Assembly (NCBI RefSeq): GCF_963678975.1
Contig: NC_089278.1
Coordinates: forward strand, 9,699,479-9,763,478
DNA: 64,000 nucleotides
Source: Dysidea avara
Lineage: Eukaryota; Porifera; Demospongiae; Dictyoceratida; Dysideidae
Reading direction: 5' to 3'
The translations under genes and the position numbers were made by a program. Positions 18,065 to 62,589 of the stretch are shown here, piece after piece (the first letter of the stretch is position 1; every line of letters begins with the position of its first letter). The notes under the pieces are model-generated. The model made no database searches, was not told the DNA's origin, and saw only the letters and a program-made list of their open reading frames with translations.

Positions 18065-18246
18065 CGTCAGCAGTACTGTAAAAGTGATCACATGTGAGCA
18101 ATGAGCATGTGAAACTTGAGGTGAGACCACGTGCAACGTTGCGGTAACGCGGGGTGTCCGAGCATGCTCATGATGTGATTTAGAGGGAACAGAAGACACA
18201 CCTGTTCAAAGGTCTGCTCCAGTTTGTAATTCTACTGCGCATCTCA
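18065..18246. promoter_or_regulatory. 182-bp divergent promoter of the dikinase and NRF1 genes
   Basis: The ATG of the minus-strand dikinase (18064) and of NRF1 (18247) are 182 bp apart. The gap is GC-richer than its surroundings. It contains TGCGCA at 18236-18241, which is the half-site core of the NRF1 recognition sequence, six bases before the NRF1 ATG, and a palindrome AGCATGCT at 18161-18168. NRF1 binding to its own promoter is inference. Confidence 0.55.
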
Positions 18247-20466
18247 ATGGCCGATACACCCGGGGTTCATGACAGTGGTAGTTTGAGGGTAGATTTATCG
18301 AGTTTTTCTGCTGTCACTTCCAACGTTGGTCCTGTTTCTGGAGTGGAAATTATTAGAGGTGAAAATTCCTTACAAGGTGGTGCGAAAGATGAGCGCAACG
18401 CTGAAGACGACTCGCGGCTGGGAGATATCCATATTCCGATGGAACTAAGTTCTGCTGACCCTATTGACGCCATTGCCAATCAGAACGTCACTAGGAACAG
18501 CCCTGTTGTCACCGAAGCGTTGGAAATACCAACCGATACTCTTACAAGCATTTCAAACCCCTTCTCACAGATGCCAGATGTTTCTAGCTTACAGCCCGAG
18601 ATGGCTCACCACAGTACTGGCCATGGTGACGCTTTGGGTACGTCTTTGGGTGAAGACACGGCCCGAGTACTTGGAGACAACCCCTTAGCTTATCCTGACC
18701 TAGGAATTAATACCAGTACTTCTACTGACCAGTCACTAACGATTGGTACATCAACTGATATGAGTTCACCAGTGAAACAGCAGCAACAACAACAGCAGGA
18801 GCCAAGAATTTACAGTGAAAATGAACCGTCCTCACCTGAGAGTAGTATGATTGAAATGATGTCAGCAGAAGATATTGCACAAGATGAGGTTACATCGAGA
18901 CTAGCCAGATCTGGGCCGGTGGGGTTGGCAGCTGCTGTAGCTGTTGCATCAGCTCGGAAGAGAAAAAGTCAATACCAATTTGAGTCTAATCCAGCACTGC
19001 GGAGACGATACACTACCAAACTAATGCGTCAACTACAGAACACAATTGATGAGTACACAACTAGGGTTGGTGTACAGGCTGCAGTAGTTATTTATACTCC
19101 CGGAAAAGATATGCCATTGTTCAAAGTATTTGGGGCCAACCCATTGGAAAGTGTGTTAAAGAAACAAAAGCATTTGATTATACGTGAAGTGGAGAACTCC
19201 CTGCAGTCCCAAACACCTGCTAACTTTCCACACACAACAGAACAGAGCCTGTTTGAGCTACCTCCACTAGTATTTGAAGGAATACCTACACCTGTCAGTA
19301 AAATGACACAGGCCCAACTCAGAAATTTCATTCCTACAATGTTGAAATATTCCACCCAAAGAGGAAAGCCTGGATGGGGCAAGGAGGATAACAAACCAGT
19401 ATGGTGGCCTGATGGAATACCTTTTGAAAACATCCGTATTGATCCACGGTCTCCAGATGAAAAGAAGCAATTGTCATGGACTGATGCCCTGAGACAGATC
19501 ATTGTCAACTGTTATGTCCACCATGGTAGGTTGGATTTGTTGCCAGAGTTCAGTCAGGCTCAGCAGATGCAACAACAGCAACAAGCTGCTGAGGAAAGTG
19601 TAGAAAACACTTTGTCAGATAATTCTGGTGGTGTAACCACTACTTCCACTGATCTCTCCCAACCACCTAATCTTCTCAGCACAAGCAATCAACAGGTAAA
19701 CTGGTGTTGATCCAATGCTATTGCCCTGTTAATACTTTTGTTTTCATTTAAGGTGTTTACCATTGATACCGGATTGGGTTCTAATGAGGATGGTAGTAGC
19801 TCTGGGATGGCTACATTAGCAGATGCATCACTGGCTGAGACTGCAGCCAAACTACAACAAATTGCTGATGAAACTGGTCAAGTACAATATGCTACACAGA
19901 CGGTAACAGTTACAGAGAGAGATGCCAAAGCCCTTGGACAGCCAGTGGGTTCCACTACCACAGTACTACTTACTGCTTATCCTGGTGGACAAGGAAATAG
20001 CAGTACGTCACAGTCAGACAGTAGCCAACAATTTTTTAATTCTGTCTCTTCATCGGTTGAAAATCAGTATCTTACTAGCAGTGAACCTGGCCAAGAATAC
20101 CTAAGCCTTGAATCACAACCTTCAGAGACCCAAGGTTATCTTAACACATCTGCCACCACGTCCAATTCCATGCTAACTGGTATGACCATGTCTAGTGCAA
20201 ATAATGACCAAATTGATGATAGTAAAGATCCTAGGAACCTTGTTGATTCTGTGGTGTCTGCATTATCATCCTCTGACAAGCCAAGCTTGGTGGAGCAGAT
20301 TCGTATAGGTGGATTAACATCTGCATTCTCTGATGCCTTTGGTTCTCTCAGTGAACAGACTCATTCAGTTGCAGACTTGTCCCAGTCTGACATTGCCTTA
20401 GCCTCTCAGTTTATATCTGGTGCATCACAGCCAATAAACACTGTACAAGAACAACATATGAACTAG
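18247..20466 (+). CDS. NRF1: Nuclear respiratory factor 1 (NRF1/Erect wing family)
   Basis: Two exons (18247-19695 and 19753-20466, phase 0) encode 720 residues. The conserved NRF1 DNA-binding and dimerisation region lies at about residues 225-430: GPVGLAAAVAVASARKRKSQ, FESNPALRRRYTTKLMRQLQ, DEYTTRVGVQAAVV, PLFKVFGANPLESVLKK, MTQAQLRNFIPTMLKYSTQR, GKPGWGKEDNKPVWWPDGIP and SWTDALRQIIVNCYVHHGR. NRF1 binds GC-rich palindromes (TGCGCATGCGCA) and drives mitochondrial, ribosomal and cell-cycle genes. The protein is longer than the human one (503 aa), chiefly because of a Ser/Thr-rich N-terminal extension of about 220 residues, with a Gln tract near residue 180 and another near 445. The C-terminal half is rich in Ser, Thr and Gln, as expected for an activation domain. 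It is divergent with the dikinase gene. Confidence 0.96.
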
Positions 20467-37960: not shown

Positions 37961-40900
37961 ATGATAATTGTTGTGTTTGTCGTCAACTTGCTCTTTCTCG
38001 GTTGCTCCAAGGCACAAACTACCAACATGCCAGGTGAAGATTCTTTACAGTGTAATGGCACAGGAAGGCTGACGTTCCAAGGCGATGGACGATTCTCTAT
38101 TGTACGAGACGGCGGAAATGGAAGCTTGCATTGCGATGGGGACGTGAACTTTATAACAAATTCACTCTTGTATGCTAGAGTTATCAGTAAAGGCCAGTTT
38201 ATTTGCAACTCATCTAGCAGCGTGCGGCTATGTGGATACGGTGAAGCTGAATTGGTAAGTTCCGAAGGATCCAGCAGTATGGTTCAGTGTAACGGAGAGC
38301 CAATATTTCCGTCTACACCTATTCCTACTACTTTTTGTGGTGGAAACGGCGACTTTACCGTGTTTGGGCTTGGAAACTACACCATCACAGCTGGGACTAT
38401 TGGTTGTACCGGTGATTTCGCCCGTATGCGATTGACACTTACGACATATGACGTTGCTGGCGAATTTCATTGTTCAGGAACTGGTCCGTATTCTCTAGTG
38501 GGTGACGGAGTGCTACACTATGTATCATCAGAATCAGGCAACTGCACAGCTACAACAGGAGAACCTCCAACTACTCAGCCAAGCCCAACATGCTATGGAG
38601 GAGGAAACAATGTTTCCATAGTCGGCTCTGGATACTTCAACCTTTCATTTGTAGAGTTTGCTAGCTGTTCTGGTGATATATCTATGGTCATATCGGCATT
38701 GTTCTTTCAAACTTATGGAACATTTTATTGTGACTCATTTGGTAACTTTACAATTATGCGCACTAATGATGGTGGATATTTAGATGTATCAGCAGATTAT
38801 CACAATTGTTTCTTTTCCACCGTTTCACCAACAAGTACATTATCTACCCCAACTCCAACACCAATACCAAATTTTAATTGTTATGGAGGAGGAAATGTGT
38901 CAACCATTGAAGGATATGGTGATTTCAATCTGATATTTTCACACTATCCCAATTGTACTGGAAATGGGTACTTTTCACCTCCTAATAATAATAGTTACTA
39001 TTATCATACTTATGGCAACTTTAGTTGCAGGGCTTTTGGCAATTTCACTATTGAACGTACTGGGTATGGTGGATCTTTGAATGTTTACGCAGAATATCAC
39101 AATTGTTACTTGCCCACGATGTCTCCTACTCCAATACCAACACCTACACCAAATTTTAGCTGCTACGGTAGTGGAAATGTGTCAACTATTGAAGGTTATG
39201 GTGATTTCAATCTGATATTTTTGCACTATCCCAATTGTACTGGCTATGGGTACTCTTCATCTTACGGTAATAACAGTTATTACTATCACTCTTCTTTTGG
39301 CAACTTTAATTGCAGAGCTTATGGCAATTTCACTATTGAACGTATTGGGTATGGTGGATCTTTGAATGTTTACGCAGAATATCACAATTGTTACTTGCCC
39401 ACGATGTCACCTACTCCAATACCAACACCTACACCAAATTTTAGCTGCTACGGTAGTGGAAATGTGTCAACTATTGAAGGTTATGGTGATTTCAATCTGA
39501 TATTTTCGCACTATCCCAATTGTACTGGTAATGGGTACTCTTCATCTTACGGTAATAACAGTTATTATTATCACTCTTCTTATGGCAACTTTAATTGCAG
39601 AGCTTATGGCAATTTCACTATTGAACGTATTGGGTATGGTGGATCTTTGAATGTTTACGCAGAATATCACAATTGTTACTTGCCCACGATGTCCCCTACT
39701 CCTACTCCAATACCAACACCTACACCAAATTTTAGCTGCTACGGTAATGGAAATGACTCAACTATTGAAGGCTATGGTGATTTCAATCTGATATTTTCAC
39801 ACTATCCCAATTGTACTGGTAATGGATACTCTTCATCTTACGGTAATAACAGTTATTATTATCACTCTTCTTATGGCAACTTTAGTTGCAGGGCTTACGG
39901 CAATTTCCGTATTGAACGTATTGGGTATGGTGGATCTTTGAATGTTTATGCAGAATATCACGATTGTAACTTGCCCACGATGTCCCCCACACCTACTCCA
40001 ACACCAACATCACAGTTTAGTTGTTATGGAGGAAGTAACAGAACTATAAGTGTCTCAGGATATGGATATTTCAATCTGTCATTTACACAGGCTGCAAACT
40101 GCACTGGAGACCTATTTACACATAATTCAACTTACCAGACTTTTGAAACTTATGGTACATTTTACTGTAGTGCATCTGGATTTAGTGAGTTTTCAATCGA
40201 GCGCCTTAAAGATGGCGGATTTATAAATGTATCAGCTGATTATCACAATTGTTTCTTGCCTACCATTTCACCATCAAGTACATTTTCTACCCCAACTCCA
40301 ACACCAATGCCAAATTTTAATTGTTACGGAGGAGGAAATGTGTCAACTATTGAAGGCTATGGTGATTTCAATCTGATATTTTCACACTATCCCAATTGTA
40401 CTGGAAATGGGTACTTTTCACCTCCTAATAATGATAGTTACTATTATCATACTTATGGCAACTTTAGTTGCAGGGCTTTTGGCAATTTCACTATTGAACG
40501 TACTGGGTATGGTGGATCTTTGAATGTTTACGCAGAATATCACAATTGTTACTTGCCCACGATGTCTCCTACTCCAATACCAACACCTACACCAAATTTT
40601 AGCTGCTACGGTAGTGGAAATGTGTCAACTATTGAAGGTTATGGTGATTTCAATCTGATATTTTCGCACTATCCCAATTGTACTGGCTATGGGTACTCTT
40701 CATCTTACGGTAATAACAGTTATTATTATCACTCTTCTTTTGGCAACTTTAATTGCAGAGCTTATGGCAATTTCACTATTGAACGTATTGGGTATGGTGG
40801 ATCTTTGAATGTTTACGCAGAATATCACAATTGTTACTTGCCCACGATGTCACCTACTCCAATACCAACACCTACACCAAATTTTAGCTGCTACGGTAAT

Positions 40901-43900
40901 GGAAATGACTCAACTATTGAAGGCTATGGTGATTTCAATCTGATATTTTCACACTATCCCAATTGTACTGGTAATGGATACTCTTCATCTTACGGTAATA
41001 ACAGTTATTATTATCACTCTTCTTATGGCAACTTTAGTTGCAGGGCTTACGGCAATTTCCGTATTGAACGTATTGGGTATGGTGGATATTTGAATGTTTA
41101 TGCAGATTATCACGATTGTAACTTGCCCACGATGTCCCCCACACCTACCCCAACGCCAATATCACGGTTTAGTTGTTATGGGGGAAGTAACAGAACTATA
41201 ATTGTCTCAGGATATGGATATTTCAATCTGTCATTTACACAGCCTGCAAACTGCACTGGAGACCTATTTACACATAATTCAACTTACCAGACTTTTGAAA
41301 CTTATGGTACATTTTACTGTAGTGCATCTGGATTTAGTGAGTTTTCAATCGAGCGCCTTCAAGATGGCGGATTTTTAAATGTATCAGCTGATTATCACAA
41401 TTGTTTCTTGCCTACCATTTCACCATCGAGTACATTTTCTACCCCAACTCCAACACCAATACCAAATTTTAGCTGCTATGGTAGTGGAAATGTGTCAACT
41501 ATTGAAGGTTATGGTGATTTCAATCTGATATTTTCACACTATCCTAATTGTACTGGAAATGGGTACTCTTCATTTTATAACAACAATAGGTACTATTATC
41601 GTTCTTACGGCAACTTTAGTTGCAGGGCTTATGGCAATTTCACTATTGAACGTATTGGGTACGGTGGATCTTTGAATGTTTACGCAGAATATCACAATTG
41701 TTACTTGCCCACGATGTCTCCTACTCCAATACCAACACCTACACCAAATTTTAGCTGCTACGGTAGTGGAAATGTGTCAACTATTGAAGGTTATGGTGAT
41801 TTCAATCTGATATTCTCGCACTATCCCAATTGTACTGGCTATGGGTACTCTTCATCTTACGGTAATAACAGTTATTATTATCACTCTTCTTTTGGCAACT
41901 TTAATTGCAGAGCTTATGGAAATTTCACTATTGAACGTATTGGGTATGGTGGATCTTTGAATGTTTACGCAGAATATCACAATTGTTACTTGCCCACGAT
42001 GTCACCTACTCCAATACCAACACCTACACCAAATTTTAGCTGCTACGGTAATGGAAATGACTCAACTATTGAAGGCTATGGTGATTTCAATCTGATATTT
42101 TCACACTATCCCAATTGTACTGGTAATGGATACTCTTCATCTTACGGTAATAACAGTTATTATTATCACTCTTCTTATGGCAACTTTAGTTGCAGGGCTT
42201 ACGGCAATTTCCGTATTGAACGTATTGGGTATGGTGGATATTTGAATGTTTATGCAGATTATCACGATTGTAACTTGCCCACGATGTCCCCCACACCTAC
42301 CCCAACGCCAATATCACGGTTTAGTTGTTATGGGGGAAGTAACAGAACTATAATTGTCTCAGGATATGGATATTTCAATCTGTCATTTACACAGCCTGCA
42401 AACTGCACTGGAGACCTATTTACACATAATTCAACTTACCAGACTTTTGAAACTTATGGTACATTTTACTGTAGTGCATCTGGATTTAGTGAGTTTTCAA
42501 TCGAGCGCCTTCAAGATGGCGGATTTTTAAATGTATCAGCTGATTATCACAATTGTTTCTTGCCTACCATTTCACCATCGAGTACATTTTCTACCCCAAC
42601 TCCAACACCAATACCAAATTTTAGCTGCTATGGTAGTGGAAATGTGTCAACTATTGAAGGTTATGGTGATTTCAATCTGATATTTTCACACTATCCTAAT
42701 TGTACTGGAAATGGGTACTCTTCATATTATAACAACAATAGGTACTATTATCGTTCTTACGGCAACTTTAGTTGCAGGGCTTATGGCAATTTCACTATTG
42801 AACGTATTGGGTACGGTGGATCTTTGAATGTTTACGCAGAATATCACAATTGTTACTTGCCCACGATGTCTCCTACTCCAATACCAACACCTACACCAAA
42901 TTTTAGCTGCTACGGTAGTGGAAATGTGTCAACTATTGAAGGTTATGGTGATTTCAATCTGATATTCTCGCACTATCCCAATTGTACTGGCTATGGGTAC
43001 TCTTCATCTTACGGTAATAACAGTTATTATTATCACTCTTCTTTTGGCAACTTTAATTGCAGAGCTTATGGAAATTTCACTATTGAACGTATTGGGTATG
43101 GTGGATCTTTGAATGTTTACGCAGAATATCACAATTGTTACTTGCCCACGATGTCACCTACTCCAATACCAACACCTACACCAAATTTTAGCTGCTACGG
43201 TAATGGAAATGACTCAACTATTGAAGGCTATGGTGATTTCAATCTGATATTTTCACACTATCCCAATTGTACTGGTAATGGATACTCTTCATCTTACGGT
43301 AATAACAGTTATTATTATCACTCTTCTTATGGCAACTTTAGCTGCATAGCTTATGGCAATTTCACTATTGAACGTATTGGGTATGGTGGATCTTTGAATG
43401 TTTACGCAGAATATCACAATTGTTACTTGCCCACGATGTCCCCTACTCCTACTCCAATACCAACACCTACACCAAATTTTAGCTGCTACGGTAGTGGAAA
43501 TGTGTCAACTATTGAAGGTTATGGTGATTTCAATCTGATATTTTCGCACTATCCCAATTGTACTGGCTATGGGTACTCTTCATCTTACGGTAATAGTAGT
43601 TATTATTATCACTCTTCTTATGGCAACTTTAGCTGCATAGCTTATGGCAATTTCACTATTGAACGTATTGGGTATGGTGGATCTTTGAATGTTTACGCAG
43701 AATATCACAATTGTTACTTGCCCACGATGTCACCTACTCCAATACCAACACCTACACCAAATTTTAGCTGCTACGGTAATGGAAATGACTCAACTATTGA
43801 AGGCTATGGTGATTTCAATCTGATATTTTCACACTATCCCAATTGTACTGGTAATGGATACTCTTCATCTTACGGTAATAACAGTTATTATTATCACTCT

Positions 43901-46900
43901 TCTTATGGCAACTTTAGCTGCATAGCTTATGGCAATTTCACTATTGAACGTATTGGGTATGGTGGATCTTTGAATGTTTACGCAGAATATCACAATTGTT
44001 ACTTGCCCACGATGTCCCCTACTCCTACTCCAATACCAACACCTACACCAAATTTTAGCTGCTACGGTAGTGGAAATGTGTCAACTATTGAAGGTTATGG
44101 TGATTTCAATCTGATATTTTCGCACTATCCCAATTGTACTGGCTATGGGTACTCTTCATCTTACGGTAATAGTAGTTATTATTATCACTCTTCTTATGGC
44201 AACTTTAGCTGCATAGCTTATGGCAATTTCACTATTGAACGTATTGGGTATGGTGGATCTTTGAATGTTTACGCAGAATATCACAATTGTTACTTGCCCA
44301 CGATGTCACCTACTCCAATACCAACACCTACACCAAATTTTAGCTGCTACGGTAGTGGAAATGACTCAACTATTGAAGGTTATGGTGATTTCAATCTGAT
44401 ATTTTCACACTATCCCAATTGTACTGGTAATGGATACTCTTCATCTTACGGTAATAACAGTTATTTTTATCACTCTTCTTATGGCAACTTTAGTTGCAGG
44501 GCTTACGGCAATTTCCGTATTGAACGTATTGGGTATGGTGGATATTTGAATGTTTATGCAGATTATCACGATTGTAACTTGCCCACGATGTCCCCCACAC
44601 CTACCCCAACGCCAATATCACGGTTTAGTTGTTATGGAGGAAGTAACAGAACTATAATTGTCTCAGGATATGGATATTTCAATCTGTCATTTACACAGCC
44701 TGCAAACTGCACTGGAGACCTATTTACACATAATTCAACTTACCAGACTTTTGAAACTTATGGTACATTTTACTGTAGTGCATCTGGATTTAGTGAGTTT
44801 TCAATCGAGCGCCTTCAAGATGGCGGATTTTTAAATGTATCAGCTGATTATCACAATTGTTTCTTGCCTACCATTTCACCATCGAGTACATTTTCTACCC
44901 CAACTCCAACACCAATACCAAATTTTATCTGCTATGGTAGTGGAAATGTGTCAACTATTGAAGGTTATGGTGATTTCAATCTGATATTTTCACACTATCC
45001 TAATTGTACTAGAAATGGGTACTCTTCATTTTATAACAACAATAGGTACTATTATCGTTCTTACGGCAACTTTAGTTGCAGGGCTTATGGCAATTTCACT
45101 ATTGAACGTATTGGGTATGGTGGATCTTTGAATGTTTACGCAGAATATCACAATTGTTACTTGCCCACGATGTCCCCTACTCCAATACCAACACCTACAC
45201 CAAATTTTAGCTGCTACGGTAGTGGAAATGTGTCAACTATTGAAGGTTATGGTGATTTCAATCTGATATTTTCGCACTATCCCAATTGTACTGGCTATGG
45301 GTACTCTTCATCTTACGGTAATAACAGTTATTATTATCGCTCTTCTTATGGCAACTTTAGCTGCAGAGCTTATGGCAATTTCACTATTGAACGTATTGGG
45401 TATGGTGGATCTTTGAATGTTTACGCAGAATATCACAATTGTTACTTGCCCACGATGTCCCCTACTCCTACTCCAATACCAACACCTACACCAAATTTTA
45501 GCTGCTACGGTAGTGGAAATGTGTCAACTATTGAAGGTTATGGTGATTTCAATCTGATATTTTCGCACTATCCCAATTGTACTGGCTATGGGTACTCTTC
45601 ATCTTACGGTAATAACAGTTATTATTATCACTCTTCTTTTGGCAACTTTAATTGCAGAGCTTATGGCAATTTCACTATTGAACGTATTGGGTATGGTGGA
45701 TCTTTGAATGTTTACGCAGAATATCACAATTGTTACTTGCCCACGATGTCACCTACTCCAATACCAACACCTACACCAAATTTTAGCTGCTACGGTAATG
45801 GAAATGACTCAACTATTGAAGGCTATGGTGATTTCAATCTGATATTTTCACACTATCCCAATTGTACTGGTAATGGATACTCTTCATCTTACGGTAATAA
45901 CAGTTATTATTATCACTCTTCTTATGGCAACTTTAGCTGCATAGCTTATGGCAATTTCACTATTGAACGTATTGGGTATGGTGGATCTTTGAATGTTTAC
46001 GCAGAATATCACAATTGTTACTTGCCCACGATGTCACCTACTCCAATACCAACACCTACACCAAATTTTAGCTGCTACGGTAATGGAAATGACTCAACTA
46101 TTGAAGGCTATGGTGATTTCAATCTGATATTTTCACACTATCCCAATTGTACTGGTAATGGATACTCTTCATCTTACGGTAATACCAGTTATTATTATCA
46201 CTCTTCTTATGGCAACTTTAGCTGCATAGCTTATGGCAATTTCACTATTGAACGTATTGGGTATGGTGGATCTTTGAATGTTTACGCAGAATATCACAAT
46301 TGTTACTTGCCCACGATGTCACCTACTCCAATACCAACACCTACACCAAATTTTAGCTGCTACGGTAGTGGAAATGTGTCAACTATTGAAGGTTATGGTG
46401 ATTTCAATCTGATATTTTCGCACTATCCCAATTGTACTGGCTATGGGTACTCTTCATCTTACGGTAATAACAGTTATTATTATCGCTCTTCTTATGGCAA
46501 CTTTAGCTGCAGAGCTTATGGCAATTTCACTATTGAACGTATTGGGTATGGTGGATCTTTGAATGTTTACGCAGAATATCACAATTGTTACTTGCCCACG
46601 ATGTCCCCTACTCCAATACCAACACCTACACCAAATTTTAGCTGCTACGGTAGTGGAAATGACTCAACTATTGAAGGCTATGGTGATTTCAATCTGATAT
46701 TTTCACACTATCCCAATTGTACTGGTAATGGATACTCTTCATCTTACGGTAATAACAGTTATTTTTATCACTCTTCTTATGGCAACTTTAGTTGCAGGGC
46801 TTACGGCAATTTCCGTATTGAACGTATTGGGTATGGTGGATATTTGAATGTTTATGCAGATTATCACGATTGTAACTTGCCCACGATGTCCCCCACACCT

Positions 46901-49900
46901 ACCCCAACGCCAATATCACGGTTTAGTTGTTATGGGGGAAGTAACAGAACTATAATTGTCTCAGGATATGGATATTTCAATCTGTCATTTACACAGCCTG
47001 CAAACTGCACTGGAGACCTATTTACACATAATTCAACTTACCAGACTTTTGAAACTTATGGTACATTTTACTGTAGTGCATCTGGATTTAGTGAGTTTTC
47101 AATCGAGCGCCTTCAAGATGGTGGATTTTTAAATGTATCAGCTGATTATCACAATTGTTTCTTGCCTACCATTTCACCATCAAGTACATTTTCTACCCCA
47201 ACTCCAACACCAATACCAAATTTTAGCTGCTATGGTAGTGGAAATGTGTCAACTATTGAAGGTTATGGTGATTTCAATCTGATATTTTCACACTATCCTA
47301 ATTGTACTGGAAATGGGTACTCTTCATTTTATAACAACAATAGGTACTATTATCGTTCTTACGGCAACTTTAGTTGCAGGGCTTATGGCAATTTCACTAT
47401 TGAACGTACTGGGTATGGTGGATCTTTGAATGTTTACGCAGAATATCACAATTGTTACTTGCCCACGATGTCACCTACTCCAATACCAACACCTACACCA
47501 AATTTTAGCTGCTACGGTAATGGAAATGACTCAACTATTGAAGGCTATGGTGATTTCAATCTGATATTTTCACACTATCCTAATTGTACTGGTAATGGAT
47601 ACTCTTCATCTTACGGTAATAACAGTTATTATTATCACTCTTCTTATGGCAACTTTAGTTGCAGGGCTTACGGCAATTTCCGTATTGAACGTATTGGGTA
47701 TGGTGGATATTTGAATATTTATGCAGATTATCACGATTGTAACTTGCCCACGATGTCCCCCACACCTACCCCAACGCCAATATCACGGTTTAGTTGTTAT
47801 GGGGGAAGTAACAGAACTATAATTGTCTCAGGATATGGATATTTCAATCTGTCATTTACACAGCCTGCAAACTGCACTGGAGACCTATTTACACATAATT
47901 CAACTTACCAGACTTTTGAAACTTATGGTACATTTTACTGTAGTGCATCTGGATTTAGTGAGTTTTCAATCGAGCGCCTTCAAGATGGCGGATTTTTAAA
48001 TGTATCAGCTGATTATCACAATTGTTTCTTGCCTACCATTTCACCATCGAGTACATTTTCTACCCCAACTCCAACACCAATACCAAATTTTATCTGCTAT
48101 GGTAGTGGAAATGTGTCAACTATTGAAGGTTATGGTGATTTCAATCTGATATTTTCACACTATCCTAATTGTACTGGAAATGGGTACTCTTCATATTATA
48201 ACAACAATAGGTACTATTATCGTTCTTACGGCAACTTTAGTTGCAGGGCTTATGGCAATTTCACTATTGAACGTATTGGGTACGGTGGATCTTTGAATGT
48301 TTACGCAGAATATCACAATTGTTACTTGCCCACGATGTCTCCTACTCCAATACCAACACCTACACCAAATTTTAGCTGCTACGGTAGTGGAAATGTGTCA
48401 ACTATTGAAGGTTATGGTGATTTCAATCTGATATTTTCGCACTATCCCAATTGTACTGGCTATGGGTACTCTTCATCTTACGGTAATAACAGTTATTATT
48501 ATCACTCTTCTTATGGCAACTTTAGCTGCAGAGCTTATGGCAATTTCACTATTGAACGTATTGGGTATGGTGGATCTTTGAATGTTTACGCAGAATATCA
48601 CAATTGTTACTTGCCCACGATGTCTCCTACTCCAATACCAACACCTACACCAAATTTTAGCTGCTACGGTAATGGAAATGACTCAACTATTGAAGGCTAT
48701 GGTGATTTCAATCTGATATTTTCACACTATCCCAATTGTACTGGTAATGGATACTCTTCATCTTACGGTAATAACAGTTATTATTATCACTCTTCTTATG
48801 GCAACTTTAGCTGCATAGCTTATGGCAATTTCACTATTGAACGTATTGGGTATGGTGGATCTTTGAATGTTTACGCAGAATATCACAATTGTTACTTGCC
48901 CACGATGTCCCCTACTCCTACTCCAATACCAACACCTACACCAAATTTTAGCTGCTACGGTAGTGGAAATGTGTCAACTATTGAAGGTTATGGTGATTTC
49001 AATCTGATATTTTCGCACTATCCCAATTGTACTGGCTATGGGTACTCTTCATCTTACGGTAATAACAGTTATTATTATCACTCTTCTTTTGGCAACTTTA
49101 ATTGCAGAGCTTATGGCAATTTCACTATTGAACGTATTGGGTATGGTGGATCTTTGAATGTTTACGCAGAATATCACAATTGTTACTTGCCCACGATGTC
49201 ACCTACTCCAATACCAACACCTACACCAAATTTTAGCTGCTACGGTAATGGAAATGACTCAACTATTGAAGGCTATGGTGATTTCAATCTGATATTTTCA
49301 CACTATCCCAATTGTACTGGTAATGGATACTCTTCATCTTACGGTAATAACAGTTATTATTATCACTCTTCTTATGGCAACTTTAGCTGCATAGCTTATG
49401 GCAATTTCACTATTGAACGTATTGGGTATGGTGGATCTTTGAATGTTTACGCAGAATATCACAATTGTTACTTGCCCACGATGTCACCTACTCCAATACC
49501 AACACCTACACCAAATTTTAGCTGCTACGGTAATGGAAATGACTCAACTATTGAAGGCTATGGTGATTTCAATCTGATATTTTCACACTATCCCAATTGT
49601 ACTGGTAATGGATACTCTTCATCTTACGGTAATACCAGTTATTATTATCACTCTTCTTATGGCAACTTTAGCTGCATAGCTTATGGCAATTTCACTATTG
49701 AACGTATTGGGTATGGTGGATCTTTGAATGTTTACGCAGAATATCACAATTGTTACTTGCCCACGATGTCACCTACTCCAATACCAACACCTACACCAAA
49801 TTTTAGCTGCTACGGTAGTGGAAATGTGTCAACTATTGAAGGTTATGGTGATTTCAATCTGATATTTTCGCACTATCCCAATTGTACTGGCTATGGGTAC

Positions 49901-52900
49901 TCTTCATCTTACGGTAATAACAGTTATTATTATCGCTCTTCTTATGGCAACTTTAGCTGCAGAGCTTATGGCAATTTCACTATTGAACGTATTGGGTATG
50001 GTGGATCTTTGAATGTTTACGCAGAATATCACAATTGTTACTTGCCCACGATGTCCCCTACTCCAATACCAACACCTACACCAAATTTTAGCTGCTATGG
50101 TAGTGGAAATGACTCAACTATTGAAGGCTATGGTGATTTCAATCTGATATTTTCACACTATCCCAATTGTACTGGTAATGGATACTCTTCATCTTACGGT
50201 AATAACAGTTATTTTTATCACTCTTCTTATGGCAACTTTAGTTGCAGGGCTTACGGCAATTTCCGTATTGAACGTATTGGGTATGGTGGATATTTGAATG
50301 TTTATGCAGATTATCACGATTGTAACTTGCCCACGATGTCCCCCACACCTACCCCAACGCCAATATCACGGTTTAGTTGTTATGGGGGAAGTAACAGAAC
50401 TATAATTGTCTCAGGATATGGATATTTCAATCTGTCATTTACACAGCCTGCAAACTGCACTGGAGACCTATTTACACATAATTCAACTTACCAGACTTTT
50501 GAAACTTATGGTACATTTTACTGTAGTGCATCTGGATTTAGTGAGTTTTCAATCGAGCGCCTTCAAGATGGTGGATTTTTAAATGTATCAGCTGATTATC
50601 ACAATTGTTTCTTGCCTACCATTTCACCATCAAGTACATTTTCTACCCCAACTCCAACACCAATACCAAATTTTAGCTGCTATGGTAGTGGAAATGTGTC
50701 AACTATTGAAGGTTATGGTGATTTCAATCTGATATTTTCACACTATCCTAATTGTACTGGAAATGGGTACTCTTCATTTTATAACAACAATAGGTACTAT
50801 TATCGTTCTTACGGCAACTTTAGTTGCAGGGCTTATGGCAATTTCACTATTGAACGTACTGGGTATGGTGGATCTTTGAATGTTTACGCAGAATATCACA
50901 ATTGTTACTTGCCCACGATGTCACCTACTCCAATACCAACACCTACACCAAATTTTAGCTGCTACGGTAATGGAAATGACTCAACTATTGAAGGCTATGG
51001 TGATTTCAATCTGATATTTTCACACTATCCTAATTGTACTGGTAATGGATACTCTTCATCTTACGGTAATAACAGTTATTATTATCACTCTTCTTATGGC
51101 AACTTTAGTTGCAGGGCTTACGGCAATTTCCGTATTGAACGTATTGGGTATGGTGGATATTTGAATGTTTATGCAGATTATCACGATTGTAACTTGCCCA
51201 CGATGTCCCCCACACCTACCCCAACGCCAATATCACGGTTTAGTTGTTATGGGGGAAGTAACAGAACTATAATTGTCTCAGGATATGGATATTTCAATCT
51301 GTCATTTACACAGCCTGCAAACTGCACTGGAGACCTATTTACACATAATTCAACTTACCAGACTTTTGAAACTTATGGTACATTTTACTGTAGTGCATCT
51401 GGATTTAGTGAGTTTTCAATCGAGCGCCTTCAAGATGGCGGATTTTTAAATGTATCAGCTGATTATCACAATTGTTTCTTGCCTACCATTTCACCATCGA
51501 GTACATTTTCTACCCCAACTCCAACACCAATACCAAATTTTAGCTGCTATGGTAGTGGAAATGTGTCAACTATTGAAGGTTATGGTGATTTCAATCTGAT
51601 ATTTTCACACTATCCTAATTGTACTGGAAATGGGTACTCTTCATATTATAACAACAATAGCTACTATTATCGTTCTTACGGCAACTTTAGTTGCAGGGCT
51701 TATGGCAATTTCACTATTGAACGTATTGGGTACGGTGGATCTTTGAATGTTTACGCAGAATATCACAATTGTTACTTGCCCACGATGTCTCCTACTCCAA
51801 TACCAACACCTACACCAAATTTTAGCTGCTACGGTAGTGGAAATGACTCAACTATTGAAGGCTATGGTGATTTCAATCTGATATTTTCACACTATCCTAA
51901 TTGTACTGGTAATGGATACTCTTCATCTTACGGTAATAACACTTATTATTATCACTCTTCTTATGGTAGCTTTAGTTGTAGGGCATATGGTAGTTTCCGT
52001 ATTGAACGTATTGGGTATGGTGGATCTTTGAATGTTGCTGCAGATTATCACAATTGTGTCTTTCCCACGATGCCCCCCACACCTACTCCAACACCAACAT
52101 CACAGTTTAGTTGTTATGGAGGAAGTAACAGAACTATAATTGTCTCAGGATATGGATATTTCAATCTGTCATTTACACAGCCTGCAAACTGCACTGGAGC
52201 CCAATTTACACATAATTCAACTTACCAAACTTTTGAAACTTATGGTACATTTTACTGTAGTGTGTCTGGATTTAGTGAGTTTTCAATCGTGCGCCTTCAA
52301 GATGGTGGAGTTTTAAATGTATCAGCTGATTATCACAATTGTTTCTTGCCTACCATCTCACCAACTCCAGTACCTGGTTTTACTTGCTACGGTGGAGGTA
52401 ATAATATTTCTATATTAGGATCTGGTTATTTTAAGCTAATATTTGCGGATCATGGATCGTGTTTTGGTGCCATAACATCATTATCTGATGATATTTTTGA
52501 AACAAATGGTTCATTTTTCTGTGATGGATTTGGTAATTTTACAGTTGAAAGAATTCAGCCTGGGGGAGTATTGAATGTAGATGCAGACTTTCATAACTGC
52601 TTCTTTTCTGATTATGAAATTTCTTGCTTTGCTTCTGATCAATATGAAATCGTTGGAAATGGTCTAATTAGTATTATCCCACAATCATCCAGACCATTTG
52701 ACTGTGCGGTTGGTGAAATGTTATTTAATAACTCTGATTCAAATGTGAATTTACTTTTGGGTGATTTTATATGTTCAGGAAATGGTTTTGTCCAAATAAT
52801 TGGATTAGGCCAAGTGTTTGTTAACAGCACTGGGTACACTAACTGTACTGGCACTAATGTTGTAGTTGATGACACTCCTGTGTTTTGCAGTGGATTTGGT

Positions 52901-55900
52901 GTTTATCGTTTGTCTGGTGTTGCCAATGCCACAATTGTGTCCTTGGATGAACTTACCTGTAGTGGTCAAGTAGCTTTACTCCCTTTTGATGAAGATCAAA
53001 ACAATCAAACTGGAGAACTGTATTATGCTGGTGGCTATTATAGTTGTAATGGAACTGGTTATTTTATTATAAATGGAACTGGATATGCCAACATTGATGT
53101 CACTAATGGAAGTCATACCTGTACAGGACCTCAACCAATTCTTTGTGCTACGTTTAACATTGCTGAAAATAGTGGTATCTCTGTAGTAGGAGATGGAGAG
53201 TTTACTATTATTGGTGATGACAATTTGTATTGTGACGGTAATGCTGTGTCGTGCCCAGGAGAAATCAACTACTACTTCACCGATGGACATTTCTATTGTA
53301 CTGGTGACCTCTTTGCTCATATTGATGGTGTAGGATCTATTGAGTATATTACCGGCAACAACAATTGTAGTGGATTTGGATTTGCTGTCCCACCGCCAAT
53401 TTTCTCAGGTACACCATTAACCCCACAACCAGTTTGTATTGGGTACAGTAATCAGTATTACCTAGATGGTGAGGGAACTTTTAATATCAGCAGGATTATA
53501 GGGACAATTAGTTGCAATTTAGACCTACAAGAGGTTAATTCAGATGTACTTACCTATTCCAGTTATGCACAACCATTTAACTGCAGTGGTGCCGGTATTT
53601 TCTTCCTAGAAGGAATAGGAGCATCAACTATTGTAAATAATGATGGATTCTTTAACTGTATTGATCTGACACCGTTGGAGCAATTGATTTGTGTAGGCAG
53701 TAGTGATTCTGCTTTTGTTGTAGGAATAGGTAGTTTTGTTGTCACAGCTTCACTGAATAGCTCATGCAATCCAATGTTCAGTGTAATTGATAATGGAAAT
53801 GAAAGTGACACATTTGCTGTCAGTGGTTCTTTCTCATGCTACTTTGAGGGCCCTTTCAGACTTGATGGAAATGGAACCATTTTGGATAGCCGTAGTATAA
53901 TATTTGGTGGAAATTTAACATGTAACAATAGTTCAATGGGGAATTTTAGTGTCATAACAAGTCCTACTGCTACTTTGAACACTATTACAACAATGCCTGT
54001 GATATCAAGTTCTGCTATCCTAACAAGTTTACCTCCAGTAGTATCAACTATTATTGTAACAAGTTCAATTCCAGTGGTATCAACTGCAACTAGTTCAAGT
54101 TCATCTCCTGAAGTGCCAACTTTCACAATCGTAACAAGTTCAACTCCAGTGGAATCAATTTCAACTGTCATACTAAGTTCATCTCCTGAAATATCAACTT
54201 CTCCTATCTTATCAAGTTCAATTCCAGTGGTATCAGCTTCCACTATCGTAACAAGTTTGATTCCAGTGGAATCAACTTCAACTGCTGTACAAAGTTCAAC
54301 TCCTGAAGTATCAACTTCTGCTATGTTAACAAATTCAATTCCAGTGATGTCTACTTCTATGGTAACAAGTTCAATTCCAGTGGTATTAACTTCAACTATT
54401 GTACAAAGTTCATCTCCTGAAGTATCAACTTCTGCTATCTTAACAAGTTCAATTCCAGTGATGTCTACTTCTATTGTAACAATCTCAATTCCAGTGGAAT
54501 TAACTTCAACTATTGTACAAAGTTCAACTCCTGAAGTATCAACTTCTACTATCTTCACAAGTTCAATTCCAGTGATGTCTACTTCTATCGTAACAAGCTC
54601 AATTCCGATGGTATTAAATTCAACTATTGTACAAAGTTCAACTCCTGAAGTGTCAACTTCTGCTATCTTAACAAGTTCAATTCCAGTGATGTCTACTTCT
54701 ATCGTAACAAGCTCAATTCCGATGGTATTAAATTCAACTATTGTACAAAGTTCAACTCCTGAAGTGTCAACTTCTGCTATCTTAACAAGTTCAATTCCAG
54801 TGATGTCTACTTCTATCGTAACAAGCTCAATTCCGATGGTATTAAATTCAACTATTGTACAAAGTTCAACTCCTGAAGTGTCAACTTCTGCTATCTTAAC
54901 AAGTTCAATTCCAGTGATGTCTACTTCTATCATAACAAGCTCAATTCCGATGGTATTAAATTCAACTACTGTACAAAGTTTAACTCCTGAAGTATCAACT
55001 TCTGCTATATTAACAAGTTCAATTCCAGTGATGTCTACTTCTATCGTAACAAGTTCAATTCCAGTGGTATTAACTTCAACTACAGTGGTATTAAATTCAA
55101 CTATTGTACAAAGTTCAACTCCTGCAGTATCAACTTCTGCTATCTTAACAAGTTCAATTCCAGTGATGTCTACTTCTATCGTAACAAGCTCAATTCCAGT
55201 GGAATTAACTTCAACTATTGTACAAAGTTCAACTCCTGAAGTATCAATTTCTGGTATCTTGACAAGTTCAACTCCAGTGATGTCTACTTCTATCGTAACA
55301 AGCTCAATTCCAGTGGAATCAACTTCAACTATTGTACAAAGTTCAACTCCTGATGTATCAACTTCTGCTATGTTAACAAGTTCAATTTCAGTGGTATTAA
55401 ATTCAACTATTGTACAAAGTTCAACTGCTGAAATATCAACTTCTGGTATCTTGACAAGTTCAACTCCAGTGGAATCAACTTCAACTATTGTACAAAGTTC
55501 AACTCCTGAAGTATCAACTTCTGCTATGTTAACAAGTTCAATTCCGATGGTATTAAATTCAACTATTGTACAAAGTTCAACTGCTGAAGTATCAACTTCT
55601 GGTATCTTGACAAGTTCAACTCCAGTGGAATCAACTTCAACTATTGTACAAAGTTCAACTCCTGAAGTATCAACTTCTGCTATGTTAACAAGTTCAATTC
55701 CGATGGTATTAAATTCAACTATTGTACAAAGTTCAACTGCTGAAATATCAACTTCTGCTATCTTGACAAGTTCAACTCCAGTGGAATCAACTTCAACTAT
55801 TGTACAAAGTTCAACTCCTGAAGTATCAACTTCTGCTATGTTAACAAGTTCAATTCCGATGGTATTAAATTCAACTATTGTACAAAGTTCAACTGCTGAA

Positions 55901-58900
55901 GTATCAGCTTCTGCTATCTTGACAAGTTCAACTCCAGTGGAATTAACTTCAACTACTGTACAAAGTTCAACTGCTGAAATATCAACTTCTGCTATCTTGA
56001 CAAGTTCAATTCCAGTGATGTCTACTTCTATTGTAACAAGTTCAATTCAAGTGGTATTAACTTCAACTACTGTACAAAGTTCAACTCCTGAAGTATCAAC
56101 TTCTGCTATGTCAACAAGTTCAATTCCGATGGTATTAAATTCAACTATTGTACAAAGTTCAACTGCTGAAATATCAACTTCTGCTATCTTGACAAGTTCA
56201 ACTCCAGTGGAATCAACTTCTGCTATCTTAACAAGTTCAACCCCATCAGTATCAACTGCAACTAGTTCACCTCCTGTGGTATCCACAGTGAGTTCACATA
56301 CTTCAGTTACTCCAGCAGTGTCAAGTACATCAACTTCAAGCACTACTGTTGTACCTACTACCACCATTACAACTTCTGCAACACCCACGGAATCCGTAAG
56401 TTGTATTATACATGCCACATATTAAGGAGTTATATTGTGTTAATACAGCCTGTAGTAATGCTTGAGGATCTGACTCCAGAAGAGGAAGAAAATGCAGTCA
56501 CTTTATTTTTTGATGGATATGACACGGTACTGACTGTAACCTATAGCAATGTGTTGTTTTGATATTTACTGGTATACTATGTGATAACTTTCCGGTTGGT
56601 TCTTTAGGTAGAAGAATTTGATATGGAAGCATTCTCAGAGTTTATATTAAGCACTCTGTCAGTAGCAAGGCGTCGCAGACAAGTTACAACTGAGCTAATT
56701 GTAATGTTTATTGCTCCTACTCCTAGACTGGTCAATGGAGTATTAGAAGTTGCATTCTTTGTTATAAGTACACAGGGAATGTTATATGATGGCGATGCTG
56801 TTTTTGAAGCAGTTGAAGAAAACGAAGAAGAATTAGTACAAGCTGTAAGTAGTTGTATTATTATTGTGCAGCCCCAGTGTGTTTGCAGTGCTACTTATGT
56901 TGTGCATAAGCTTCAATCCTCTGTGTTCATTATAAAGAGTTATAATGTTATGCTACTGCATTTCAATCCAGCCTATGTACAGGAAGTAAACCTGAATGTG
57001 TATGTTGGTTGAATTGCAGTTGCAAATGCAATAACAATTGTAATTGGGGAGAATTCTGTAAAAGCCAATTATGCCCAATGGGTGAGAGAGTCAGCATGCT
57101 TTATGCAGCAGAACTGGAGTCCATAGGTGTGCCACATAAGTGCCACCTTGCAGCGTTTATGGGCTTTTGAGCACAGTATCTTTGGAATGTACACTAAGTG
57201 TAGGCAGGAGCCTTACGGTGTAGGAGTGTATGGTGTCAACTTGACTGACTGTGTATTATATTAGTGATCTTACATCCAGTTAATTGTTACACTTCTTTGA
57301 AGTATGCTTAGCTTTGTTCTTGCCTGTATAAGCAATTGACTTTCTTGGAACCATATTCTTCAGTTTCTTTAAACCCTGACTGCAGAACTTTAGGTGGTAA
57401 GCTAGAGTGGGAAGGTTTGGTGCCATGAAAAGATGTTTTGCTATGTGTACATATGGATCAGTAATCAGGGTATTTGGATATTTACGTTTCTCATAATGTA
57501 GTAGTAACTATCTTTAAACTATACTTGCAACATTAGTTTAATTAATTATAATTATCCCATTGATGACTAAATTCCTGGCCAAATTGTTGAGTTGTGTCAT
57601 GCTAGCCTTATATAACTGCTAGCCTTGAGTTGTGTCTTGTCACAGAATTACTTAGCAATCATACTTGACTTTGTTGTTTTTTACATAGTACTAACCACAA
57701 AAAGATTATTACATGGCAAAATCTAAACTTCGGTAAAATAAATAGTTTACAAAATCAGTTCCAATCAACTTACATGCACTCTATAGAACTTATAATTTAC
57801 TGACAAGTTTTTAGCACTGTGCATGAATTCATGTCAAGGACTAGAGATCAACAATGTATGAAACATGCAGGTTATCTTCTAAAAGCCACTATACAGCTAT
57901 GGATTGATCATGATACAGCAAACCAAAAGGAATAATAATTGATGCACACAGTGCCACACTGCTGTACAGCTATGGTTTATCTTATTTTTGATGTTGTGCA
58001 TGTACATCTGTACTTGTGTGCACCATGCCTCATCCAGGAAAAAAACATAGAAGGTCATCTCCACCTGTCTCCATCAATGTATAGTAGTGTCTTCCATAGA
58101 CTTCAACTTGAAGAACGATTTAACTCACTTATTCTAACAAAAATCACTTACCCGCAATTACATACTATCCCAGGAAGGATCCAATTATAGTAGGGAGGAA
58201 CCTTATGGGCATGTCTGTTTTAACACTGGTCCATCTTGCTACGAAATTCACACAGCAGTTTGTAGCAAAGCTAGTTTTAACTTGCACGATTTATATGTGA
58301 CCTGCTAAGCCAAAACCCAACTTGTTTGCATAATTCTATTTTTGAGATAAGTGCCATTGAAACACATTGGGTAGAAACATGTGCTACGTAAATAATATTA
58401 CAATTGCTGCATAAATTATCACATGCTATGTTAATAGTTTTAAAGGCTCTAGAATGATTTTTAAAAAACTGGCATGGAAAATGCTAAAGCAACAATGCCA
58501 GTCTATGCTACAATTTCTCCCCAAGACAAAATTTGTTGGAGGGACCAGTGATCCCTGCCCCCTTAGAATAGCCTATACTCACTAACAGATTAAATTAATC
58601 CATTCAGCTCTTAACACTTTGCTGTGTCCAAGCAAATTCTAACTAGTTGCTTCAACAATTATTCACAACATGCTGCTTTTTTTCAAGACACACAGTAGTG
58701 TGTTGTGCCACACTGTGCATAATAATTATATTGACAGGGAAAAAAAGGATTTTCATGCATACAAAACTCCATGATCCCTTTTCGAAAACACACAATTATA
58801 GCTTCCTTCCACCTTCAGCACATCACATACTAAATTTAGCAAAATCATTTGTGAAAATACAAGCCCTCAAAGTTAGGCTTAATTTCTTGGGTTTTTTTTC

Positions 58901-59930
58901 CTTTCATTTATTGGGACCTAATTTTTCTTCATCTTTTCACACATTGTGGTACATTAATGAGGAATTTGCATACCAAGTCTGGTGCAAATCTGACGGACAT
59001 CCATTCGTGGAGTTATGAACGATTAGTTGGGACCAATTTCTAGTCATGCCTGCAGAGTAAACCACTTAGGGAATAATTTACTTTTTAAACCAGGCATGTA
59101 CCCACAAAGGCCAGCTGTGGGAATCTGCCTGGTTTACTGAAATTGTTTTCGTAAAATGTGTGTGTGTGTGTGTACCTACCTATCTATGTTTGTCTGTAAG
59201 TACCCACATGAGCAAAATTGTTAAATGGTAAAAGCAGCTTGCACGTAAGAAGTAAAAGCAAACTGAAGTCTGTATTAAACTTCCACACAGGTAAACTTTG
59301 CACTGAGGTGGTTTCTTTTCGGTGGCCTTAGCAATGCATAGCAACGTAATTGAAGAATTACAAAATTTCATGAATTACCAAACTCAAACATAATTAATTG
59401 ATGTATTATAGCTATATAGTTATACATAATTGATTAGGGTGGTTATACAGCTGATGGTTATTCGAATTACACTGTATTTCCTGCAGGTAAATGCATCAGG
59501 TGTAAACGCAGTTGACGGACTCTCAGAAGAATTGTCTGAGGAATTGAGGGAAATTACTGCAACCCCCGATGGTGGTAGTGGTGATGATGGAATCAGTACT
59601 GGTGCCATAGCTGCAATTGTGGTTGTTGTAGTAGTAGTCTTGCTGACACTAGTCATAGTACTCACCACATTTTTGGTCTATAAGAAGAGAAACAAGAAAA
59701 GTTATGATGTTTATAGAAAGAGCCGACGTGGTGGAGATGATTACGTTGCAGATACTGCATTTGACAACAAGACTTACATGGTTGCACAAGAAATATCAGA
59801 CAGTCGTGTAGAACAAATGATGTCTACTGAGCCTGAGCCTTTCAAACTGGTAGACCAGAAGAGTGCAGATGATGGTATGGTAACGATGAATCCTGATGCT
59901 GATCATGACGATACTGAGACACATTTATAG
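37961..59930 (+). CDS. Giant repeat-built type I membrane glycoprotein, about 6,397 aa, family unknown
   Basis: Four exons (37961-56395, 56449-56526, 56608-56844, 59487-59930), all phase 0. In order: signal peptide (residues 1 to about 19, MIIVVFVVNLLFLGCSKAQ); two divergent units; a tandem array from about residue 211 to 4808; five or six divergent units to about 5327; a Ser/Thr/Val/Ile-rich stretch to 6145; a membrane-proximal domain of about 130 residues (VMLEDLTPEEEENAVTLFF; LIVMFIAPTPRLVNGVLEVA) with an RRRR site at 56668-56679; an acidic Gly/Asp stalk; a transmembrane helix at about 6288-6315 (GAIAAIVVVVVVVLLTLVIV); and an 82-residue tail with YDVY, DDYVAD and TYMVA. Units have four cysteines and several N-glycosylation sequons (NVS, NCT, NNS, NFS/NFT), and linkers such as MSPTPIPTPTP suit O-glycosylation. 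This is probably an adhesive or protective surface molecule; no family is recognised. The membrane-proximal part may be SEA-like (inference). Confidence 0.9.
38591..52383 (+). repeat. Coding tandem array of about 48 units, about 288 bp each
   Basis: Units start at each CYG. Type A runs CYGSGNVSTIEGYGDFNLIF, SHYPNCTG, a variable Tyr/Ser/Asn patch, YGNFSCRAYGNFTIERIGYG, then SLNVYAEYHNC and a Pro/Thr linker. Type B runs CYGGSNRTIIVSGYGYFNLS, NCTGDLFTHNSTYQTFETYG, FYCSASGFSEFSIERLQDGG, YHNC and the linker SPSSTFSTPTPTP. Type B recurs about nine times among roughly forty A units. Exact DNA offsets between blocks are 576 bp (43165 and 43741), 1,152 bp (41161 and 42313) and 3,450 bp (45360-48395 and 48810-51845). 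All offsets are multiples of 3, and the frame is never broken. Confidence 0.95.
53942..56395 (+). repeat. Coding minisatellite for the Ser/Thr/Val/Ile-rich mucin-like region
   Basis: The elementary unit is 12-13 codons (TSSIPVMSTSIV, QSSTPEVSTSAIL). These combine into a 114-bp period clearly seen at 54550-54960 (TSSIPMVLNSTIVQSSTPEV then STSAIL), with further mixed orders downstream. It follows the last cysteine-containing unit and precedes the membrane-proximal exons. The composition suggests dense O-glycosylation, although Val and Ile are higher and Pro lower than in classical mucins. Confidence 0.9.
56845..59486 (+). other. Intron 3 of the giant gene
   Basis: This 2.6-kb intron separates the membrane-proximal exon from the transmembrane exon. 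It includes inverted repeat copy C near its 3' end and AT-rich sequence with short open frames (57939-58190, 58647-59018) that have no recognisable features. No exon with matching phase was noticed inside it. Confidence 0.7.
59083..59370 (-). repeat. Dispersed repeat family, copy C (inverted)
   Basis: Reading the minus strand, GAAACCACCTCAGTGCAAAG, TTTACCTGTGTGGAAGTTTA, AAGCTGCTTTTACCATTTAA and TACACACACACACACACA, then AACCAGGC, correspond one after another to copy A between 25110 and 25370. The upstream part shared by A and B is absent. The tract (GT)n at 59157-59174 is part of the element. Confidence 0.8.
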
Positions 59931-60855: not shown

Positions 60856-62589
60856 ATGTGTACCTTACTAGTTCAGTATATACCATGTTCCCATGTTCAG
60901 AATATGACCTGCACTGATCAATCCACGCCATTTGTTGGAAACTATCCAGGTACTGCCTTACACACCATATGTAATGAAGTCCAAATATCTGAACAGGAAG
61001 TATATGAAGCACTCGTTTCACTCCATACTGACAAGGCCACTGGTACTGATGGTATTGGCCCAAGGATTCTCAAACAATATGCTAACATTCTTGCTAATAA
61101 GCCATTGCACCATTTGTTTACAATCAGTTTAAATAGTTGCTCCATACCTTATGAATGGCGCATATACACACACGATTGTTCCTGTACATAAATCTGGTGA
61201 CAAGACTCAAGTTACTAACTATCGTCCAATTTCTCTACTCTGTATAACATCTAAGGTATTAGAACAACTAGTTACAACAAAACCATTTCTTACATTTCAA
61301 GTTTTCTCTCACCTCAGCAGTTTGGCTTCTTAAAAAATCGATCCACAGTGCAACACTTGCTTCTCATGTTGAACACTATACATAGTACTAATGACCAAAC
61401 TGATGTAGTCTATCTTGACTTCAAAAAGGCTTTTGACAGTGTCCCCCACAAGGAACTGTCATTCAAACTTTGATCACTTGGAATTTCTGGCAAGCTTTGG
61501 TCATGGTTTGAATCATACCTACTTAATCGTTATCAGTGTGTGAAGATTAACAACTCATTGTCTCACCTTCTCCCAGTTCTATCCGGAATCCCACAGGGAA
61601 GTATACTTGGCCCACTTCTATTTCTCATATATGTTAATGATATTCCGGACATCATTAAATTTTGTCTATTGTTTCTATTTGCAGACGACACCAAATGCAT
61701 CAAAACTATCTCCTCACCACTAGATCTACTTAAACTTCAAGAAGACTTAAATAATTTAAACTTTTGGAGTACCCACTGGAATCTTCTATTCGGTCTATCA
61801 AAAATCTTTCTGCTATCTTTTAAAAGGAAATCTCCAACATCTTACAATATTGGCACCTCCCAGATTTCTTGTGTTGATACATACAAAGATCTAGGAATTA
61901 TGTTATCAAGTGACCTGTCATGGGATGCTCACTATTACCACATTATCTCCAAATCCTATCAGGTACTTGGACTTCTAAGAAGATCTTTCTCCCTACAAAA
62001 TTATGTCCAAGCCAAATCTCGACTATATACCTCTCTTGTTAGATTCCAGTTTTTCTACTGCTCGGTCATCTGGAAACCCTACCTAATTAAGCACATTCAG
62101 CAACTCGAACGTGTTCAGAGGCGTGCAACTAAATACATTCTAAATGATTACTCTACTGACTACAAGTCTCGTCTTATTAATCTCCATATGCTACCCCTGA
62201 TGTACATTCTTGATGTAAATGATATGATGTTCTTTCTTAAAAATCTCCACAACGCCCACAATGGATTTGACATCAATAATTTCATTAAATTTGCAACTGG
62301 TCACACACGTCTAGCTTCTGGAAACAAGCTACTCCAAACAAGATCACCTGACAATTCCACTAGTAACTTTTATTTTAACCGGCTTCCTCGCATCTGGAAT
62401 GTCCTTCCCGTTATCAACTACCAGGACAACCCACTCAAGATAAAGGCCAAACTTTTAGATTATCTGTGGAATCATTTCACTGCCAATTTCACCTCCAACA
62501 ACACCTGCTCTTTTTCATTTCTATGTCCATGCTCAAAGTGTTCAAAGATCCCTCACCAACCTAACTTCAACTCCCTTTAACTGTTAATT

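Follow-up and report, generated by a model that had tools for sequence, protein, structure and literature searches.

Tandem genes for putative giant transmembrane mucin-like glycoproteins in the sponge Dysidea avara

The stretch of Dysidea avara DNA considered here (hereafter the window) comprises 64,000 nucleotides (nt) of contig NC_089278.1 (positions 9,699,479 to 9,763,478 of the forward strand, NCBI RefSeq assembly GCF_963678975.1) and contains a giant four-exon gene predicted to encode a repetitive cell-surface protein. Its first exon (37961-56395, + strand) is stop-free over 18,435 nt, or 6,145 codons, and the probability of so long a frame arising by chance at 37.6% G+C is about 10^-185. 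This exon ends in a GTAAGT donor and is spliced in phase 0 to three further exons (56449-56526, 56608-56844, and 59487-59930), the first two introns being short (53 and 81 nt). An alternative exon 2, longer by 9 nt, is likewise open and yields a 6,400-residue product, but a 6,397-residue model is preferred because both paralogs described below use the equivalent of the shorter exon 2 donor. A whole-protein hydropathy scan, run like the motif checks on the 6,400-residue model with the longer exon 2, revealed only two prominent hydrophobic segments, a signal peptide and a single transmembrane helix, as in a type I membrane protein. The features are as follows, in window coordinates:

37961-38017, + strand: signal peptide, residues 1-19, with a putative cleavage point (hydrophobic segment, residues 1-20)
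38042-38551, + strand: N-terminal modules 1-2, common to both paralogs, with a fifth cysteine in module 1
38582-52606, + strand: array of 49 four-cysteine modules with Ser/Thr/Pro-rich linkers
52616-53929, + strand: five C-terminal four-cysteine modules
53993-56395, + strand: mucin-like stretch of 801 residues without cysteine, with 39-nt-type repeats, to the end of exon 1
56449-56526, + strand: exon 2, 26 codons, in which the membrane-proximal domain begins
56608-56844, + strand: exon 3, 79 codons, membrane-proximal domain with a putative SEA-like layout
56668-56679, + strand: RRRR, furin-type motif, the sole R-x-[KR]-R found in the protein
59487-59930, + strand: exon 4, transmembrane helix, cytoplasmic tail, and stop
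59601-59678, + strand: transmembrane helix, located by the hydropathy scan, with exact limits taken from the sequence
59916-59927, + strand: C-terminal ETHL, which we take to be a class I PDZ-ligand motif

The same architecture recurs in tandem. When the 551-Mb genome was searched (the contig carrying the window measures 39.5 Mb), exon 3 gave three matches and the N-terminus five, in three frames; the resulting cluster consists of three genes on one strand, spanning 94 kb, with the window gene as gene 1. In contig coordinates, exon 1 of gene 2 ends at 9791301 and is followed by exons at 9791354-9791428, 9792285-9792521, and 9800015-9800497. Gene 3 contains an open frame 3,701 codons long; its exon 1 ends at 9828622 and is followed by exons at 9828673-9828747, 9828912-9829148, and 9831161-9831619. 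All four exons and their phase-0 junctions were thus found again in both paralogs, as were the furin-type motif of exon 3 (RRRRQ, RRRRQ, and RQRRQ in genes 1, 2, and 3) and the tail ends (DTETHL, DTDTHL, and DIDTHL), which argues strongly for exons 2-4 being genuine. The motif persists despite low exon 3 identity to the window gene (47% for gene 2 and 44% for gene 3), and the ratio of amino-acid-changing to silent differences (pN/pS) in this exon is about 0.5. A preliminary description, made from the window sequence alone, had proposed the continuous 6,145-codon frame with three phase-0 exons, a product of about 6,400 residues, and membrane anchoring through a terminal transmembrane helix and cytoplasmic tail; its exon coordinates prove correct, the length is refined to 6,397 residues, and the anchoring fits the signal peptide and the one helix detected, with the tail encoded by exon 4.

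Most of the predicted ectodomain consists of a four-cysteine module, of which cysteine counts give 56 copies (49 in the array, 2 N-terminal, and 5 C-terminal, the limits of these last two groups being drawn by hand), in line with the roughly 56 first described. In an alignment of 33 distinct modules, the four cysteines and two glycines were invariant. Residues 20-5340 contain 275 N-glycosylation sequons, 252 of them in array modules (about five per module), and Ser, Thr, and Pro make up 70% of the 48 linkers that separate the array modules, in keeping with the glycosylation potential noted earlier. The best of five AlphaFold models of a single module was all-beta, with a mean predicted local distance difference test (pLDDT) score of 88.4 (76.8 to 88.4 across the five) and a predicted template modeling (pTM) score of 0.77. 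Structure comparison of this model returned weak rows, many of them seed globulins and oxalate decarboxylases, presumably cupins, and the module matched no Pfam or NCBIfam family above cut-off and no PDB sequence convincingly. The earlier statement that the protein belongs to no recognised family therefore holds for the module in these three resources, but not for the protein as a whole, which has relatives among public proteins (see below). Modules 1 (38042-38296) and 54 (53135-53374) each carry one extra cysteine, which is kept in relatives and could engage in a disulfide bond over long range or between molecules.

The array comprises several module types that succeed each other in a recurring order. 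Its growth looks recent: at the DNA level the 49 modules reduce to 32 different sequences, and the array contains a 3,770-bp duplication with copies 97.9% identical. For the two module length classes with several members, pN/pS was 0.35 and 0.56, i.e., amino-acid-changing differences were fewer than silent ones, and the copies hence appear constrained rather than diversified. By motif, array-type modules number 49 in gene 1, 0 in gene 2, and 27 in gene 3, with the four-exon plan retained throughout. A genome search with the module gave at least 77 matches; of those listed, 76 fall within the reading frame of gene 1 or gene 3. The other (C7:7531611-7531727, - strand) is an isolated piece of 37 residues that matches the latter half of a module at 73% identity, and its position about 2.2 Mb away from the cluster suggests a possible relic or dispersed copy.

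Relatives were also found among public proteins, in numbers that are lower bounds. A query of 681 N-terminal residues retrieved at least 3 proteins, and a profile built from these and two window pieces at least 36, the 3 included; in both cases scoring was confined to the 8,000 candidates with the most words in common with the query. Relatives occur in assemblies from both ENA and JGI, which, like the two short introns, is consistent with a sponge. All 36 listed relatives are ENA entries without names, and they appear to be single-frame open reading frame calls because several run on past the position of the exon 1 donor. One of them (P0006) corresponds, start residue aside, to gene 2 of the D. 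avara genome, leaving 35, and not all matches are separate genes (pairs P0027/P0029 and P0032/P0034). An F[EQ]GDGRFS N-terminus was found in 24 of the 36, and each of these 24 has the fifth cysteine of module 1 (19 as CGYG, 4 as CGFG, and 1 as CGLG). From module 1 through the penultimate module, a span of 55 modules in the window gene, 7 of 16 relatives counted have 42 cysteines, equivalent to 10 modules plus two, and the total follows 4n+2 in 12 of the 16, the exceptions being two with 72, one with 43, and one with 41. Array-type module endings, in one to three copies, were detected by one motif in four of the 36 listed relatives (P0003, P0005, P0007, and P0008) and by a second motif in five (P0024 added). 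A [TS]-V-S signature at the exon 1 donor, following a Ser/Thr tail, was recognized by eye in 9 of the 36 (P0001, P0006, P0013-P0017, P0019, and P0020); P0021 has V-C, and many others end before that point. As for the C-terminal modules, window positions 52361-53980, which hold all five, are 59% identical (329/555) to P0001, and the five cysteines of module 54 are all invariant in alignment A4 (20 rows, with 19 of the 36 relatives, the others being short, truncated, or divergent).

C-terminal to the last module and still within exon 1, the mucin-like stretch is 48% Ser+Thr (29% Ser and 19% Thr). The short region encoded downstream would combine the furin-type motif with an apparent alpha/beta layout, and in genes 2 and 3 a Gly-Ser turn (NGSLEV) precedes the next predicted strand. 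A search with exon 4 retrieved 8 proteins, one of them the window's own, with a T-x-L end in all 8 aligned rows and in 10 of 10 sequences when the 7 other public matches listed are taken together with the three genomic genes. A precomputed Pfam label (PF27960.1) is attached to 4 of the 8 tail-exon matches listed, although a Pfam scan of two of the labeled proteins did not return it.

Taken together, these features suggest, on sequence grounds, that the gene product is probably a giant mucin-like transmembrane glycoprotein belonging to the cell-surface coat. The modules would fold as small disulfide-stabilized beta domains bearing N-glycans, the linkers and mucin-like stretch would be O-glycosylated, and the ectodomain could stand upright as a long brush, the height of which may have been adjusted by module duplication. 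Furin would cleave the membrane-proximal domain while the two halves remain associated, yielding a sheddable tether, and through its PDZ ligand the protein may be held by a scaffold at one surface. Notch is likewise cut by furin with its halves remaining together, and SEA mucins reach a comparable two-part state by self-cleavage. The sponge region resembles the Notch heterodimerization and SEA domains in its furin-type motif, its apparent alpha/beta layout, and, in two paralogs, a possible counterpart of the Gly-Ser autoproteolysis turn, but no sequence match was obtained to PDB chains for the membrane-proximal region or to Pfam SEA (PF01390) in genes 1, 2, and 3, the latter in hmmscan searches at E values up to 10, where HMMER filters discard most matches above 0.1. 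A genome-wide PF01390 search likewise gave nothing, but it also drew a blank in all 14 control genomes and so carries no weight. The hmmscan result for SEA weighs against a membrane mucin, as do three other observations: the window gene has NGVLEV at the Gly-Ser turn position, proline makes up merely 7% of the mucin-like stretch, and most of the ectodomain consists of folded-looking modules rather than a mucin repeat.

As outlined in PMC9578598, human MUC3-cluster mucins have a giant repeat exon, a SEA domain, a transmembrane helix, and a class I PDZ motif, and PMC6705488 describes PDZK1 as holding MUC17 at the apical membrane. The sponge gene shares with the MUC3/MUC12/MUC17 cluster a giant repeat-coding exon, a membrane-proximal domain, one transmembrane helix, a class I PDZ ligand, and tandem paralogs of unequal repeat length. 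It differs in that its repeat region is mostly a four-cysteine module and in that neither a Pfam SEA match nor sequence homology was found, and since SEA was looked for without success, we do not claim membership in the MUC3/MUC17 group. A more tentative idea is that a non-vertebrate animal lineage arrived at transmembrane mucins on its own, separately from the SEA mucins of vertebrates but on the same working plan, with genes in a tandem cluster, a giant repeat exon, a membrane-proximal domain cut in two by furin, and a PDZ tether. The rod would here be made from a new family of disulfide-bonded beta modules, with the height of the glycocalyx molecule set by copy number. A glycocalyx mucin proposed for an early-branching animal has the same proposed role, but its reported domains are of the VWD, SRCR, and EGF-like types, and none of these scored above cut-off in five pieces of the window protein.

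The preliminary description had suggested an adhesion, allorecognition, or surface-coat role, and of these the surface coat fits best. If the protein were a receptor for cell-cell adhesion or allorecognition, its modules would bind a partner on the adjacent cell, while paralogs and repeat-number alleles would confer individuality. Three related membrane protein genes in tandem would suit such a receptor, as would the near-identical array duplications, from which copy-number polymorphism is predicted. We nonetheless consider it unlikely: the array copies are constrained instead of diversified, YxxL/I motifs of the immunoreceptor tyrosine-based activation or inhibition type (ITAM/ITIM) are absent from all three tails, and no Ig domain above cut-off was found in the five window pieces or the 20 A4 members, the nearest approach being a below-cut-off Ig-like_POM152 row in P0001 (E value 0.0025). 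The mucin-like stretch, furin-type motif, PDZ ligand, and gene cluster, none of which figured in the preliminary description, instead point to a membrane mucin. The sponge aggregation factor, a large glycosylated extracellular protein with Calx-beta domains, is similar in size class and in glycosylation (here predicted), but the giant gene product is membrane-anchored and no Calx-beta match was obtained in the five window pieces or, at an E value of 0.01, in the 20 A4 members.

The many copies of a predicted all-beta module, along with the seed globulins and oxalate decarboxylases among the weak structural rows, would also be compatible with a surface lectin that captures particles or microbes, its modules binding glycans and its multivalent avidity serving feeding or symbiont retention, although we regard this as improbable. 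Least plausible, and in our view very unlikely, is a secreted mucus component, with the ectodomain freed by furin and cross-linked via the extra cysteine in each of modules 1 and 54. The single furin-type motif and the conservation of both cysteines among the relatives agree with this, but a strongly conserved tail and PDZ ligand would serve no purpose in a product that is simply released, and no VWD-type polymerization domain was matched in the pieces scanned (for gel-forming mucin VWD, C8, and TIL domains, the N-terminal 400 residues, the C-terminal 540 residues, and a 500-residue array piece). If a transmembrane mucin is indeed encoded, a giant membrane mucin-like cluster in a sponge makes it directly testable whether such animals possess a tethered glycocalyx and whether this arose more than once, and the module offers an unassigned domain family for which a confident predicted model exists. 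Sponges are named in the account of early mucins in PMC9578598, and PMC11452194 mentions mucus-like substances on demosponges.

The remainder of the window includes several other genes. Upstream of the giant gene lie a frame with a PHD finger and a below-cut-off PLU-1-like match, possibly a KDM5-type protein (438-1541, + strand), a TMEM161-like gene (2015-3316, - strand, E value 9e-102), a frame with a pyruvate phosphate dikinase AMP/ATP-binding domain (17186-17680, - strand, E value 8e-25), and a gene with an NRF1 DNA-binding/dimerization domain (18184-19707, + strand, Pfam E value 4e-96), adjoined by a frame at 19711-20463 that had no match. The NRF1-type and TMEM161-type genes are in keeping with an animal genome. 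Immediately downstream of the giant gene, a retroelement piece contains a reverse-transcriptase domain frame (61474-62577, + strand, E value 4.5e-8). Past the cluster, a gene with DM13 and DOMON domains was found (L021:4308-5912, - strand), together with a second frame with a similar start (C7:9880228-9881868, - strand), and a frame with two Tudor-domain stretches lies downstream of gene 3 (L017:3368-5389, + strand).
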